This document shows positions 16,904 to 60,428 of a DNA stretch of 64,000 nt, piece after piece. A program made the translations under genes and the position numbers. This DNA comes from Thermosynechococcus sp. HN-54 (GTDB lineage: Bacteria; Cyanobacteriota; Cyanobacteriia; Thermosynechococcales; Thermosynechococcaceae). Location: the NCBI RefSeq assembly GCF_023650955.1, contig NZ_CP098039.1, forward strand, positions 1,302,001 through 1,366,000, given 5' to 3'. The notes under the pieces were generated by a model, which had not been told where the DNA came from, made no database searches, and worked only from the letters and a program-made list of their open reading frames with translations. How positions within the stretch are numbered: the stretch's first letter is position 1; each line of letters opens with the position of its first letter.

Positions 16904-17439
16904 GCTTGTCGGCGCTGAGAAAGCCATTCCAAGAGAACCGCCCGACATTGTAAGCACTCCAACTGAGCCAGTAGCTGCGGGATGTCTGGACTCTCCAGCC
17001 GAAACTTGCTCCCTCCTCGTGGCACGGGTGCTGTTGGTGCTAGTTCCGCAATAAAACCCCACAATCGTTGATTAGAGAAGGCGCTATTGATAAGCCACGG
17101 TTGCTCATTTAAGGAGGCGATTGCTTGAATGCTATCGGTGTCAGTCCCCAATTCTCGCGCTAAAATTTGGGGCACCATTGCCATAGGGGTTTGATCGGGA
17201 AGCACTCTCCCACCGGGAAAATCAACAGTGGCTCGCCGAATTCCTACTCGAAAGGTTGGGGGCAGGCAGATTAAGTAGTCGCCTTGCAGCGTCAGGATAA
17301 TCACCGAGTCCGCCTTTTCCACCCGCCAGTACTCTAAAGTTTCACCCTTCTCGGTTAACCATTGCTCGGCAATTAACGTAACCCACTTCGATTGAATGCG
17401 TACCAGTTCGTTGAGCGATCGCCAATTCACTGTTGCCAC
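16900..17439 (-). CDS. Nudix-fold protein with degenerate Nudix box
   Basis: 179 residues (GTG start at 17439, or the GTG at 17430), beginning inside the end of the upstream methyltransferase gene, so translation is probably coupled. The layout matches ADP-ribose pyrophosphatase-like Nudix proteins: EYWRVEKADSVIILTLQG then a Pro-Gly-Gly turn DFPGGR. The box GX5EX7REUXEEXGU is damaged: it reads GRVLPDQ...VPQILARELGTD, with Gln in place of the first Glu and no REUXEE. Hydrolytic activity is therefore doubtful; a binding or regulatory role is possible. Confidence 0.7.
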   Translation of the reverse strand: MATVNWRSLNELVRIQSKWVTLIAEQWLTEKGETLEYWRVEKADSVIILTLQGDYLICLPPTFRVGIRRATVDFPGGRVLPDQTPMAMVPQILARELGTDTDSIQAIASLNEQPWLINSAFSNQRLWGFIAELAPTAPVPRGGSKFRLESPDIPQLLAQLECLQCRAVLLEWLSQRRQA

Positions 17440-18365
17440 TCTTCAGGAATTTGTGCTATTTTCTCATGTCCTGTGGGGGTGTACACCGGTCTGCCGAGGG
17501 GGCGGTAGGGCAGGGTGCCATTTTCATAGGCCTGAATTCGTTGGCGAGCAATGTTGACATAAGCGGGTTCCTTTTCACAGCCCATCGCCCGCCGATTGTG
17601 CATTAGGGCAGCCAAGAGGGATGATCCCACCCCCATATAGGGGTCAAAGACCCAATCCCCTGCATGGCTGAGGGCAAGGACGCACCGCTCCACCAACTCA
17701 ATGGGAAACTGGCAGGGATGCAGTGTTTTTTCAGGATGATTGGACTTGACATTGGGAATATCCCACACCAGTTCTTGCCAATCCTGAACAACTATTTCCC
17801 AGACATCTGATGGATTTTTGCCCAAGGGATTGCCCGAGGGTTTGCCCTTATTGGGGCCTTTGAAATGGCGTTTCCCCGGATATTTGGCTGGAATACGCAC
17901 CGCATCCAAATGAAAGATATAGTGATCGGACTTCGTGAACCAAAGAATCGTTTCATAGCGGCCAGAAAAGCGCTTTGTGGCATGGAGACCGTGGCCAAAT
18001 TTCCAAATGATGCGATTGCGCAGCTTCAAACCCAACCGCTTGAACAGGGGATAAAACAAAATATCTAAGGGATAAACCTCTCCCCCTTGAACAAAATTCC
18101 CCACTTGCCAGCACAAACTTCCCTCTGGCCGAAGCACTCGATATAGCTCGGCAATCACTTGGCTTTGGCTCTGGAGATAGTCCTCGATCGCCATCGGCGT
18201 TTCATAGGCCTTGCCGAGGTTGTAGGGTGGCGACGTGAAGATGAGCGTCATGGCCTCATCCGGCACCTGACGAATTACCTCACAAACATCTCCACTGGCA
18301 ATGACTAGCTTAGCCTCTGGAGAAAAGCGCTCTTGAATGTGCTGGCCAGAACTCAATAAATACAA
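17427..18365 (-). CDS. DNA methyltransferase (beta-class, probable N4-cytosine type)
   Basis: 312 residues. Motif IV TSPPYNLGKAYE is near residues 44-55 and the SAM-binding motif FDPYMGVGSSLLAAL is near residue 240, so the catalytic motif precedes the SAM motif as in beta-class enzymes. The SPPY form of motif IV favours N4-methylcytosine over N6-methyladenine. No restriction endonuclease gene is adjacent, so it looks like an orphan modification enzyme. It resembles the Synechocystis N4-cytosine enzyme that methylates GGCC (from memory; unverified). The 3' end overlaps the Nudix-like gene by 13 nt. Confidence 0.87.
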   Translation of the reverse strand: MYLLSSGQHIQERFSPEAKLVIASGDVCEVIRQVPDEAMTLIFTSPPYNLGKAYETPMAIEDYLQSQSQVIAELYRVLRPEGSLCWQVGNFVQGGEVYPLDILFYPLFKRLGLKLRNRIIWKFGHGLHATKRFSGRYETILWFTKSDHYIFHLDAVRIPAKYPGKRHFKGPNKGKPSGNPLGKNPSDVWEIVVQDWQELVWDIPNVKSNHPEKTLHPCQFPIELVERCVLALSHAGDWVFDPYMGVGSSLLAALMHNRRAMGCEKEPAYVNIARQRIQAYENGTLPYRPLGRPVYTPTGHEKIAQIPEEWQQ

Positions 18366-35859: not shown

Positions 35860-36948
35860 CAGAAGTGTTGAAAGATAGTTTAAGAGGCTAGAAAAAAGGG
35901 AAGAAATGTCGTATTCTTCCCTCAAAAGAAGAAAAATTAATCAGCTTACTATGGCATCTTTTTCAGTTCTTGTCAAGTCTATTCTCAAGCAGCTCAGCCC
36001 TTGCGACTACCCCGTCCTCAACTCTCAATTGTTCTTCAAAATCTGGTTGACCTACATTCTCGACCAAGGATTAACCAGCATGAGAGCCTTATTTTATCGC
36101 TTGAATCATTCGGGGATTACAGTGGATATGTCCACGTTTTCCAAGGCGAACAAAACTCGAACAACCACCTTATTTGAGAGGATTTACACTCATCTCATGT
36201 CTCAAGCTCGCAAGAGACATCGTTGTTCAAGTCTGATGCTGTTTCCTATTGATTCAACCGTCATTACCCTGACGAGTAAGCTCTTTTGGTTCTACAAATA
36301 CCATCAAGTGAAGTTAATTACAGGATTTGATTTAACAGAGAACATCCTGGGTAAGGCAGTAGTCTCTTTTGGGGAGAGACATGACCTAAGCTTTCAAGAC
36401 GAGATTTTAGAAATGATCCCTGAGAATGCCGTTGCCATCATGGATAGAGGGTTTGCGAGTTGGAGATTTTTAGAGCGGCTGAGTGAGAGGAAGTGTTTAT
36501 TTGTTGTGCGTATCAAGAATAACATGAGAATGAAGCTCAATCATGAGAGATACCGAGTGGTTCAATTTTTTGATGAGCATGGAACAGAGTTTCGTATTGC
36601 GACGAATCTAATGCATCTAAGTGATGAGGAAGTGAGTGAGCTGTATCGGCATCGGTGGGGGATTGAGAACTTATGGAAGTTTCTAAAGATGCATTTATCA
36701 TTAGACAAGCTGATTACGAAGAGTTTGAATGGGGTGATAAATCAGATTTATATGGTTTTGATTGGGTACTTAATTTTAGAGCTAATGGAGATACCTGAAT
36801 ACTTTGGCAGGAAGCTATTAGACAAATTGCGATATTTGCAACTGGAACTGAGTCGCCGCTGCTCGATAGTGCATTGGAGCTTTGATTGGCAGCCAGAGCT
36901 ACTTGTCACTTAGGATGTTAAGTTTTGTTGCAGAATTCAACACTTCTG
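35860..36948 (+). mobile_element. Complete IS4-family insertion sequence, 1,089 bp
   Basis: Bounded by a perfect 13-bp terminal inverted repeat: CAGAAGTGTTGAA at 35860-35872 and TTCAACACTTCTG at 36936-36948. It is flanked by a perfect 9-bp direct repeat (35851-35859 and 36949-36957). It contains one transposase gene with an intact DDE/YREK signature. All parts needed for movement appear intact, and the perfect target duplication suggests a recent insertion. Confidence 0.93.
35906..36913 (+). CDS. IS4-family transposase
   Basis: 335 residues, full length. The first Asp lies in LFPIDSTVITL, the second in VAIMDRGFASWRFLE, and the YREK block with Glu and Lys in ELYRHRWGIENLWKFLKMHL exactly fits Y-x2-R-x3-E-x6-K of IS4 transposases. 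GGGAAG precedes the ATG. AT-rich relative to the chromosome. Reading frame intact, so probably active. Confidence 0.95.
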   Translation: MSYSSLKRRKINQLTMASFSVLVKSILKQLSPCDYPVLNSQLFFKIWLTYILDQGLTSMRALFYRLNHSGITVDMSTFSKANKTRTTTLFERIYTHLMSQARKRHRCSSLMLFPIDSTVITLTSKLFWFYKYHQVKLITGFDLTENILGKAVVSFGERHDLSFQDEILEMIPENAVAIMDRGFASWRFLERLSERKCLFVVRIKNNMRMKLNHERYRVVQFFDEHGTEFRIATNLMHLSDEEVSELYRHRWGIENLWKFLKMHLSLDKLITKSLNGVINQIYMVLIGYLILELMEIPEYFGRKLLDKLRYLQLELSRRCSIVHWSFDWQPELLVT

Positions 36949-56754: not shown

Positions 56755-57690
56755 GTGTATCGTCTGCTGGCACCTGCCAAAATTAATCTGTTTTTACAAA
56801 TTGTTGGCAATTGTTTGGATGGCAGTGGCTACCATGAACTGGTGATGGTCATGCAGGCGGTCTCCCTCATGGATCGCATCGAACTCATCCCCCGGCGCGA
56901 TCGCCAAATTAAAGTCCATTGCACCAACCCTGCCGTCCCCTGCGATCAACGAAATCTCGCCTACAAAGCAGCGGCCCTACTCCAGCAGCATTTTCCCGAT
57001 CACGATGGCGTTGAAATTTTCATTGAAAAACGGATTCCCATGGGTGCTGGTTTAGCCGGCGGGTCAACCAATGCAGCAGCAGTACTGGTCGGCTTAGATC
57101 TGCTCTGGCAGTTGGGACTCACCCAAGAGGAGTTGCAGACTCTTGCAGCCCAACTAGGTGCTGACGTTCCCTTCTGTTTGCAAGGCGGCACCGCTTTAGC
57201 CCTAGGGCGTGGTGAACAATTGACCCCCCTAGCGGATTTACAGGGATTGACCGTCCTCTTGGGGAAGTATCGCTCCCTCAGCGTGGCTACCCCTTGGGCC
57301 TATCAAACCTATCGGCAGCAATTTGCCGCCACCTATGCCCAAACCCCCAACGAGCAGGAGCAGGCGCGACAGGAGGGGGGATCCCCAACCCTGTTACAGG
57401 CCATTCAGCAGCGTGACATTGCCAAATTGGCTGCTAGTCTCCGTAATGATTTAGAGAAAGTTGTGTTGCCCCGCTACCCTTTGGTGGCAGAGTTACGGGA
57501 GCACTTCCTCGCCGCTGGGGCGATCGCCAGCATGATGTCTGGATCGGGGCCAACGGTTTTTGCCCTCGCGCCCTCTGCCGATGAGGGCTACACAATCATG
57601 CAGCGGGTACGACGCGCCTTGCCGGATCCAGACCTTGATCTGTGGGTATGCGAGTGCTGTCCCCACGGCATTCAGCTAGATGCCGCCTAA
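56755..57690 (+). CDS. ispE: 4-Diphosphocytidyl-2-C-methyl-D-erythritol kinase
   Basis: GHMP kinase of the MEP isoprenoid pathway. 311 residues, GTG start. LLAPAKINLFLQIVG is the N-terminal motif, RIPMGAGLAGGSTNAAAVLVGL is the ATP-binding glycine loop, and SMMSGSGPTVFAL is the third GHMP motif. Normal length. The stop overlaps the convergent sigma factor gene by 4 nt. Confidence 0.95.
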   Translation: MYRLLAPAKINLFLQIVGNCLDGSGYHELVMVMQAVSLMDRIELIPRRDRQIKVHCTNPAVPCDQRNLAYKAAALLQQHFPDHDGVEIFIEKRIPMGAGLAGGSTNAAAVLVGLDLLWQLGLTQEELQTLAAQLGADVPFCLQGGTALALGRGEQLTPLADLQGLTVLLGKYRSLSVATPWAYQTYRQQFAATYAQTPNEQEQARQEGGSPTLLQAIQQRDIAKLAASLRNDLEKVVLPRYPLVAELREHFLAAGAIASMMSGSGPTVFALAPSADEGYTIMQRVRRALPDPDLDLWVCECCPHGIQLDAA

Positions 57691-58799
57691 GCAAAGTCCT
57701 CCAGATAGTCCTGAATTTCTCGCCGCCGCTGTGGCTGACGCAATTTTTGCAGAGCGCGGTGCTCAATTTGGCGAACTCGCTCCCGACTCAGTCCCAGCAA
57801 GTCTGCAATTTCCCCCATATCGAGAGGGGGCTGATCGCCCAGCCCATAGTGCAATTCCATCACTTGGCGTTCACGGGGAGAGAGATCACTGAGGAGTTGC
57901 TGCAAGGCGGCGCGTAGGGAGTCGCGCATGATCACCTCATCGGGGGTGGGTGCACTTGACTCAATCAGCTCCTGTAATTCCGTTTCTTGGTCGGAACCAA
58001 CCCGCTGTTCCAAGGCCACTGATCGCGGCACAGCCATCAACACCTCGCGCACTTGGGCAACCTCTAAGTTCAGCTCTTGAGCAATGTCTGCCAGACTGGG
58101 CATGACTCCCTGCTGCGCCGCAAGACGCCGTTGGGCACGCTTAATCTTGTTGAGCTTTTCGACAATGTGGATTGGGAGGCGGATCGTGCGACTTTGGCTA
58201 GCAACGGCACGGGTGACACTTTGGCGAATCCACCAATAGGCATAGGTGCTAAAGCGAAACCCCTTCGTGGGGTCAAACTTCTCCACAGCGCGTTCTAGGC
58301 CTAGGGTTCCCTCTTGGATTAAGTCCAAAAACTCGACACCGCGGCGCTGATACTTTTTAGCGATATTCACTACCAAGCGTAGGTTTGCTTCCAGCAGCTG
58401 GGTCTTTGCCCGCTGTCCTTGGCGCTCAATGTGCTGAAGTTCGGCAACGCTGATGTTTGCTGCCTTTGCCCAAGCTTGGCGACCCGCCTGCACACAGGTT
58501 TGCAATTCAGCTACACTCATCTTGAGTCGCGCAGCCCATTGGGCACGGGTAAGGGAACGCCCCAACTGCCGCTGCTGGCGATCGCGCTCCGTAACAGCCG
58601 CCACATAGCGTTTGATCTGGGGGTCATCGGACTGATCTCGCACTGCGAGCAGGGCTTGGTACTGCTGAACTTGTTGAGCAAGGCGCAGTTCTTGGCTGGG
58701 GGTGAGCAAGGGCACACGGCCAATTTCCTGCAAATACTGCCGTACCAAATCCGTTGTCAATGGACGGTCGGACACGGTTTGAATGGGGGTAGCCACCAT
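57687..58799 (-). CDS. Group 2 sigma-70 factor
   Basis: About 370 residues from MVATPIQTVSDRPLTTDLVR (an ATG four codons upstream is also possible). Region 1.2 (LVRQYLQEIGRVPLLT), region 2 (LRLVVNIAKKYQRRGVEFLDLIQEGTLGLERAVEKFDPTKGFRFSTYAYWWIRQSVTRAV), region 3 and region 4 (LLGLSRERVRQIEHRAL) are complete. There is no region 1.1, as in group 2 factors. Which Sig letter it corresponds to is not decided. Confidence 0.92.
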   Translation of the reverse strand: MVATPIQTVSDRPLTTDLVRQYLQEIGRVPLLTPSQELRLAQQVQQYQALLAVRDQSDDPQIKRYVAAVTERDRQQRQLGRSLTRAQWAARLKMSVAELQTCVQAGRQAWAKAANISVAELQHIERQGQRAKTQLLEANLRLVVNIAKKYQRRGVEFLDLIQEGTLGLERAVEKFDPTKGFRFSTYAYWWIRQSVTRAVASQSRTIRLPIHIVEKLNKIKRAQRRLAAQQGVMPSLADIAQELNLEVAQVREVLMAVPRSVALEQRVGSDQETELQELIESSAPTPDEVIMRDSLRAALQQLLSDLSPRERQVMELHYGLGDQPPLDMGEIADLLGLSRERVRQIEHRALQKLRQPQRRREIQDYLEDFA

Positions 58800-58972
58800 A
58801 GGACAACTCAACTCACAACATCGAGAATTCAGCTCGATAGTGGTATTCTCTGCCCTTGGCGAGGGGGGCCGCAGTGATGGAGCCGGTGCTCAGGTTGTGA
58901 TATGGATCAACTATTTTGCTCGGAGTCTTCAATCCCTGTTATAAGGGTTGGCATCATCTATAGATTTTCAAA

Positions 58973-59833
58973 CTAGGCCGCATCAACCTCAGCCAGTTCA
59001 ACGATTTTTACTTTGATACCCAGTTCCAAATCCTTGAGCCACTAAATCAGTTGCTCGCCATCAATAAGGTCAATCGGTGGCGCACCATTCCCTTGTCGCT
59101 TCTTTAACGGTATCACGGGTAAATGTTCCTGTGGTAATCAATAGTCCCTTATCAGTGCGCCCCTGCATTCCTCCACGAAAATCCCGCACATGACTAGCTG
59201 TCACAGAGCCTTGGTAGCGCTTGCATTGAAGCAAAACATGGAAACTCAGCAAACCGTTGATCTGAGCAATACCCACCCCATCAATGCCACCATCGCCTGT
59301 TTTGGCCGTCACATGAACTTAGATAAATCCTGATTCCCGTAGAAGCCGTTGGATTAAGCGCTCAAAAGCCGATGGCTCAAGGTTGCTAAGAATTTGGTAA
59401 AGTTGCTGATGCCAAGAGGTCTCTTCTAACTTTTCTTCTAGGATCGATGGTAGGGGGAAGCTTTTGGCTGGGAGTCGCTTCGTTTGTCCTTATCAGCCTC
59501 TCGGACAAATTTGACGATTTCTCGTGCATCTAATTCTTGAAGATTGAGATGGGTCGTTGAGAGTGACCAGACCCCCCGCGATGAATTCTAATTCTGCAAA
59601 AGCCCGTATTTTTTCAAATAGATGCGAGACCAACCAAGGCGGTACTCAACTTCTGTGACAGTACTATTGACGTGGGGAACTGCGAACACTTCGTCTGAGA
59701 GATTCAGCAGTTGCGAGACTTGCTCATAAATTTCCTCAATTGTGCCTGACCCCCCTAAATTTTACAGTGCCTGAAGTGTGGGAATGAGCATTTGATCAAA
59801 GGTTGGCACAAGGGGTTTAGATACCTCTGTCAT
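58973..59833 (-). pseudogene. mrr: Decayed mrr (type IV restriction endonuclease) gene
   Basis: Reading the minus strand from the ATG at 59831-59833 gives the Mrr N-terminal winged helix in pieces: LVPTFDQMLIPTLQAL, stop, GTIEEIYEQVSQLLNLSDEV, then EVEYRLGWSRIYLKKYGLLQ, stop. Further on come SAFERLIQRLLRESGFI, stop, then the catalytic core TAKTGDGGIDG and LLQCKRYQG (Asp and QxK). A frameshift after EATRE precedes GAPPIDLIDGEQLI, stop, WLKDLELGIKV. At least four nonsense codons and two frame changes are visible, so the gene is dead. The start lies 10 nt after the upstream unknown gene. Confidence 0.85.
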
Positions 59834-59843
59834 TTCTCCGTCG

Positions 59844-60428
59844 CTATTCTGTGCTTTCTGAGGAACCCGTCATGAGTTTTGTGGCTGGAGACGGCTGTTC
59901 CTTGAGAATCGTGGTGTCAATCACGCAGGGCAATCGGGCAGCCTTGAGACCGCGCTTAATCACGGCAAGGGTTTCTTGAAAGAGGACAAAGAGCGGAAAT
60001 TGACGATTGGCGCCCTCACTAAAGACATCCCGATACTGCAAGGGCATATCCCAGCTATAACTGCGACTGAGAAGCACTTGAGATTGGCGCCAACGGGTCA
60101 GCAACTCCGTAAAGCTTTCCCCCGGACGATGGATAAAAACGAGCAGTTCAATGTCGGTTTTCACTTTCCATTCAGGGTCGCACATAACAAAAACCAGATC
60201 ACAGGGCACCATCACTGACTTGACTTGGGGACGTTGGTTCGAGGTTGTAGCGGCAGGAACCTGAATATGGGCGATCGGCAGCGGAATCGGAATTAAGCTC
60301 TCTTGAGGTCGCCGCATACTGGGAATCATTTCTAGGTACGGGCGATATTGCCGCAAGAGTTCTGTCGCATGCAGCGGATCCGTGTAGCGAACCAAGGTGT
60401 GTTCGTAGAGGTTAGGGGCGATCGCCAT
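59844..60428 (-). CDS. Hypothetical protein upstream of mrr
   Basis: 194 residues, ATG start. No recognised domain; basic, no signal or membrane span. Segments such as PCDLVFVMCDPEWKVKTDIELLVFIHRPGESFTELLTRW and SYSWDMPLQYRDVFSEGANRQFPLFVLFQETLAVIKRGLKAARLP are well formed and unbroken, so it is probably a true gene. Its stop is 10 nt before the decayed mrr start, which suggests a former operon. No HIP1 palindrome within it except near the start. Function unknown. Confidence 0.65.
   Translation of the reverse strand: MAIAPNLYEHTLVRYTDPLHATELLRQYRPYLEMIPSMRRPQESLIPIPLPIAHIQVPAATTSNQRPQVKSVMVPCDLVFVMCDPEWKVKTDIELLVFIHRPGESFTELLTRWRQSQVLLSRSYSWDMPLQYRDVFSEGANRQFPLFVLFQETLAVIKRGLKAARLPCVIDTTILKEQPSPATKLMTGSSESTE

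Follow-up and report, generated by a model that had tools for sequence, protein, structure and literature searches.

Restriction genes are well known for being frequently gained and lost. The closest described relatives of the locus reported here are the Mrr type IV endonucleases, exemplified by EcoKMrr of Escherichia coli K-12 and modeled in PADLOC as mREase_IV, which combine PF14338 and PF04471 domains with D...QxK catalytic motifs. E. coli Mrr was discovered through the SOS induction that foreign methylases provoke (PMC3874153), McrBC kills cells once their genome becomes methylated (PMC2614495), and almost every cyanobacterial clade includes members with m4C methylases of the M.Ssp6803II type (PMC6560206). 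Clear full-length relatives of the copy studied here belong to a cyanobacterial Mrr subfamily, that of genome G012 and its relatives, known from sequence.

Here, we examine an mrr locus in a 64,000-nucleotide stretch of the genome of Thermosynechococcus sp. HN-54, the whole of which we call the window. The remnant has the same two domains as the described enzymes, in the same order, and the D...QxK motifs are also in place, but unlike working Mrr endonucleases, the window copy is unable to make a protein. What sets this locus apart from restriction-gene pseudogenes in general is that one can see the site without the insert, another genome that carries it, and lesions that arose independently.

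Results

Read along the minus strand from 59833 to 58958, the locus presents every part of an Mrr endonuclease with the order kept, over 876 bp from ATG to natural stop (Table 1). In a Pfam scan of the separate pieces, Mrr_N matched the piece at 59833-59591 at 1.1e-11 and Mrr_cat matched at 1.2e-24, both above the gathering score. Both the N-terminal winged helix and the C-terminal PD-(D/E)xK-like domain with its D and QxK motifs are thus recognizable, GDGGIDG and QCKRYQG falling in a single frame of the Mrr_cat part. The pieces align with intact cyanobacterial relatives of about 286 aa at no more than 71% identity, and one intact relative (286 aa, 68% identical) matches PADLOC mREase_IV at 1.3e-24. 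Across the 2,705,963-bp single-contig genome, Mrr_cat matches were found at this locus only.

Table 1. Features of the mrr locus and the methylase considered with it (window coordinates)
Positions	Strand	Feature	Basis
17427-18365	-	PF01555 DNA methylase named in the sequence-only reading; genus-wide, no strain-specific acquisition	
57687-58811	-	SigC-like sigma factor gene (start probably 58799), 112 bp past the insert	
58912-59843	-	932-bp insert, missing from most congeners, exactly between CAGAATAG and GTTGATCC of the empty site	
58958-59833	-	mrr pseudogene, ATG to natural stop	Frame-by-frame reading, Pfam
59591-59833	-	Mrr_N (winged-helix) part; premature stop 59764-59762	PF14338, 1.1e-11
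59588-59590	-	Stop created inside a 6-bp insertion that is missing in G008	Comparison with G008
59453-59587	-	Linker part, ending at a 1-bp frameshift not in G008	Comparison with G008
59088-59459	-	Mrr_cat part (GDGGIDG, QCKRYQG); premature stop 59321-59319, frameshift at 3' end	PF04471
58958-59086	-	C-terminal part GAPPIDLIDGEQ; premature stops 59044-59042 and 58975-58973, natural stop 58960-58958	Frame reading
59844-60428	-	194-aa conserved cyanobacterial gene; stop codon adjoins the insert, 10 nt before the mrr ATG	

A sequence-only reading of this stretch had described a full-length mrr gene in decay, with all Mrr parts in order on the minus strand and at least four stops and two frame changes. 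Frame reading and profile scores well over the curated cut-offs bear this out, as does alignment to intact Mrr proteins, and the actual count is five premature stops and two frameshifts. The span it gave, 58973-59833, needs amending at the 3' end, as 58973 belongs to a premature stop and the gene runs to 58958. Four of the five stops are substitutions, whereas the remaining one (59590-59588) lies within a 6-bp insertion, and the frameshifts fall near 59453-59459 and near 59086-59088. With these interruptions there is no translatable open reading frame for a type IV enzyme, and the locus is an mrr pseudogene, now nonfunctional, and not a working member of the family. That an intact gene was misread through sequencing or assembly errors is extremely improbable: 1-bp indels are a common type of error and make up two of the lesions, but the same 876 bp hold five stops, four of them substitutions, and a 6-bp insertion, the genes beside the pseudogene are intact, and a second copy, described below, is broken as well, with a raised pN/pS between the two.

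The pseudogene takes up nearly the whole of a 932-bp insert that contains mrr alone, from 10 nt before the ATG through 46 nt after the stop. We compared 11 Thermosynechococcus genomes, that of the window (G000) and 10 congeners, by searching with the flanking DNA. A clean empty site is present in 7 of the 10 congeners (G001, G003, G004, G005, G006, G007, and G009), where CAGAATAG is followed by GTTGATCC and the sequence before 59844 is directly joined to that after 58911. In the distant G002 and G010, the flanking genes lie apart and are uninformative on the insertion site. Two empty sites show small irregularities: G004 is missing 2 bp exactly at the insertion point, which may be a scar left when an insert was deleted or a coincidence, and G001 has a short tandem duplication there.

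No transposase, terminal inverted repeats, or clear target duplication was found at the insert ends, which share only 4 to 5 bp of similarity (AATAG), and no target duplication is needed because the empty site accounts for both junctions. With mrr alone inside, the insert lacks the marks of a self-mobile transposon or cassette. Elsewhere in the window, at 35906-36913, there is an apparently intact transposase-like open reading frame of 335 aa. The mrr start follows shortly after the stop codon of the codirectional 194-aa gene, and mrr was therefore probably read from the transcript of that gene; a promoter scan of the region returned nothing above chance. On the 3' side of the mrr stop, a hairpin at 58925-58949 (AACCCTTATAACAGGGATTGAAGAC) resembles a CRISPR repeat, an identity ruled out by its single copy in the genus.

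Among the 10 congeners, the same insert is present in G008 alone (Thermosynechococcus sp. M98_K2018_005), at the same base and with both junctions identical to those of the window. Related strains had been proposed as a place to look for an intact copy, and this one carrier was recovered, but its gene is also broken. G008 is a draft MAG, and its mrr copy, split at the ends of contigs C32 and C67 (L046/L045), was read from those two ends. The break sequence, a hairpin repeat, has 14 occurrences in the draft, several at contig ends, and the interruption is probably an IS-like repeat with IS200/IS605-like ends; a near variant of the hairpin occurs 56 times in G002. Besides this break, the G008 copy has lost about 100 bp of the catalytic core and shows two smaller deletions (about 23 and 28 bp), and its own three stops all face sense codons in the window. 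Conversely, the window's four nonsense substitutions all correspond to sense codons in G008, and the two copies have no indel in common. The natural stop at 58960-58958 is common to both. The same precise insertion thus holds, in two genomes, pseudogenes with independent lesions. Because the comparison turned up no lesion in common, the two copies very probably descend from an intact gene, which would have decayed separately in each lineage.

Divergence between the two copies bears on how they came to lie at the same base. For mrr, pN is 0.066 and pN/pS is 0.57, which is what relaxed constraint gives, with neighboring genes at the same locus at about 0.01 to 0.26. The pS of mrr, 0.116, falls below that of all 29 host genes compared between G000 and G008 (0.141 to 0.526, median 0.336), although an estimate from a 142-site stretch carries noise and a few host genes (0.141 and 0.148) come close to it. 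Per-segment FastTree trees and pairwise identities group G008 with G004 (about 95%) and then G007 (92 to 95%), both with an empty site, and apart from G000, which stands at 87 to 93% from all three. In the 194-aa gene adjacent to the insert, the pS of G000 is 0.19 to G008 and 0.23 to G004, against 0.39 to G007 and 0.35 to G005.

The low silent divergence of mrr, its presence in non-sister hosts, and the reduced divergence of the 194-aa gene to G008 and G004 are better explained by homologous recombination exchanging the locus between lineages than by inheritance followed by many clean losses. Under the latter, the insert would be ancestral to the genus or a large part of it, with G000 and G008 as its last remnants. 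This would account for two non-sister lineages carrying mrr at one base, and the 2-bp difference in G004, a close relative of G008, could be a scar. We nevertheless consider ancestral inheritance quite unlikely, as at least four losses would be needed, each restoring nearly identical sequence, and the two copies are too alike to have been inherited since the host split, given the host median.

No donor copy of at least 90% identity was found, the best intact relative being about 71% identical, and plasmid and phage records held none close to the window's copy. The best plasmid match to an intact relative is 53% (Proteus), and phage matches are 23 to 36%, with one viral contig at 54%, so that neither was retained as a source. 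Relatives of the window's Mrr occur at E ≤ 1e-30 in 60 of 390 sampled genomes of the class, and full-length matches of at least 70% identity number 33 among the 390, at least 1 of them interrupted. Among copies of at least 70% identity that no contig end cuts, the tally outside the genus is approximately 32 uninterrupted against at least 8 truncated or interrupted. There the gene is often followed by an 80-aa gene, an order that recurs in many other cyanobacteria, whereas the Thermosynechococcus insert is mrr alone. At another site, G010 has a C-terminal fragment of this subfamily (L056:4224-5160), with an intact 80-aa gene and then an HNH endonuclease gene behind it. All three members in the genus are thus broken, against mostly uninterrupted copies elsewhere, with a Fisher value of about 0.01 (computed for 33 versus 7) that is post hoc and draws on lineages and genomes that are not independent. 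In G001 (L055:4407-8384), a large SNF2-type helicase gene is adjacent to an intact 302-aa Mrr from a different subfamily, the two possibly forming a separate defense unit.

The sequence-only reading had also tied the loss of mrr to acquisition of the methylase at 17427-18365. This link found no support, as the methylase or a homolog is present in 11 of 11 Thermosynechococcus genomes (59 to 96% aa identity), including those with an empty site. In G001, G003, G004, G005, and G008 it is 94 to 96% identical and has topA and/or fabF-tkt nearby, as in the window; the homologs of G007 and others are at 59 to 75%. In G007, the homolog (74%) clearly occupies a different genomic position, and topA and fabF are about 1.5 kb closer together, which suggests a history of gain or replacement at the methylase locus within the genus. 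The methylase or a homolog coexists with the empty site, with broken mrr (G000 and G008), and with an intact close mrr in G012, whose methylase ortholog (59%) argues further against loss following acquisition. Silent divergence of the methylase between G000 and G008 is 0.212, above that of mrr; its alleles would thus be older than the mrr copies, and mrr probably arrived where the methylase was already established.

A different role for methylation can be envisaged, in which Mrr cut DNA modified by resident methylases, such as that at 17427-18365, and broken alleles were selected. Such a conflict is plausible in view of the SOS induction by foreign methylases through which E. coli Mrr was found (PMC3874153) and of killing by McrBC (PMC2614495), and E. 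coli Mrr is known to cause damage in the presence of incompatible methylases (PMC3874153). The PF01555 methylase is genus-wide, and genus members of this subfamily are broken in 3 of 3 cases (G000, G008, and the G010 fragment), versus about 32 of 40 uninterrupted elsewhere. We regard selection of this kind as unlikely, however, as G012 has an intact close mrr together with an ortholog of the methylase, G001 has its intact Mrr of a different subfamily alongside the methylase, and sampled genomes outside Thermosynechococcus show 1 overlap where about 1.5 would be expected by chance, with no clear avoidance. If there is a conflict, mrr is the newcomer and methylation the resident.

Discussion

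The reading that we favor, at a probability of roughly 0.8, is a single insertion of mrr, exchange by recombination, and then separate losses in G000 and G008. One mrr segment would have inserted between the 194-aa and sigma factor genes in one Thermosynechococcus lineage, in a position where the transcript of the upstream gene could include it. While still intact, the gene may then have moved between lineages at the same locus through homologous recombination, after which the window's genome and G008 would have lost it by different routes, the former by point nonsense mutations and 1-bp frameshifts and the latter by an IS-like interruption, other stops, and deletions. The intact protein would have been an Mrr-type endonuclease with an N-terminal DNA-binding winged helix and a C-terminal PD-(D/E)xK nuclease, predicted to cut DNA bearing foreign methylation. 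Its decay would reflect an absence of selection for mrr; selection against it may be an alternative cause. The wider proposal that Thermosynechococcus repeatedly gains and destroys this Mrr subfamily as resident DNA methylation makes the enzyme self-harmful is very unlikely; if true, these loci would document, in nature, how methylation forces the loss of a type IV nuclease.

The mrr of the window is a real full-length pseudogene, gained fairly recently and decayed independently in two lineages. With the methylase probably in place before mrr arrived, the order is opposite to that first proposed, and the idea of a conflict becomes testable. The event itself is of an ordinary, known kind, and its record is unusually clear, spanning the gain, the probable exchange, and the parallel loss of a restriction gene.
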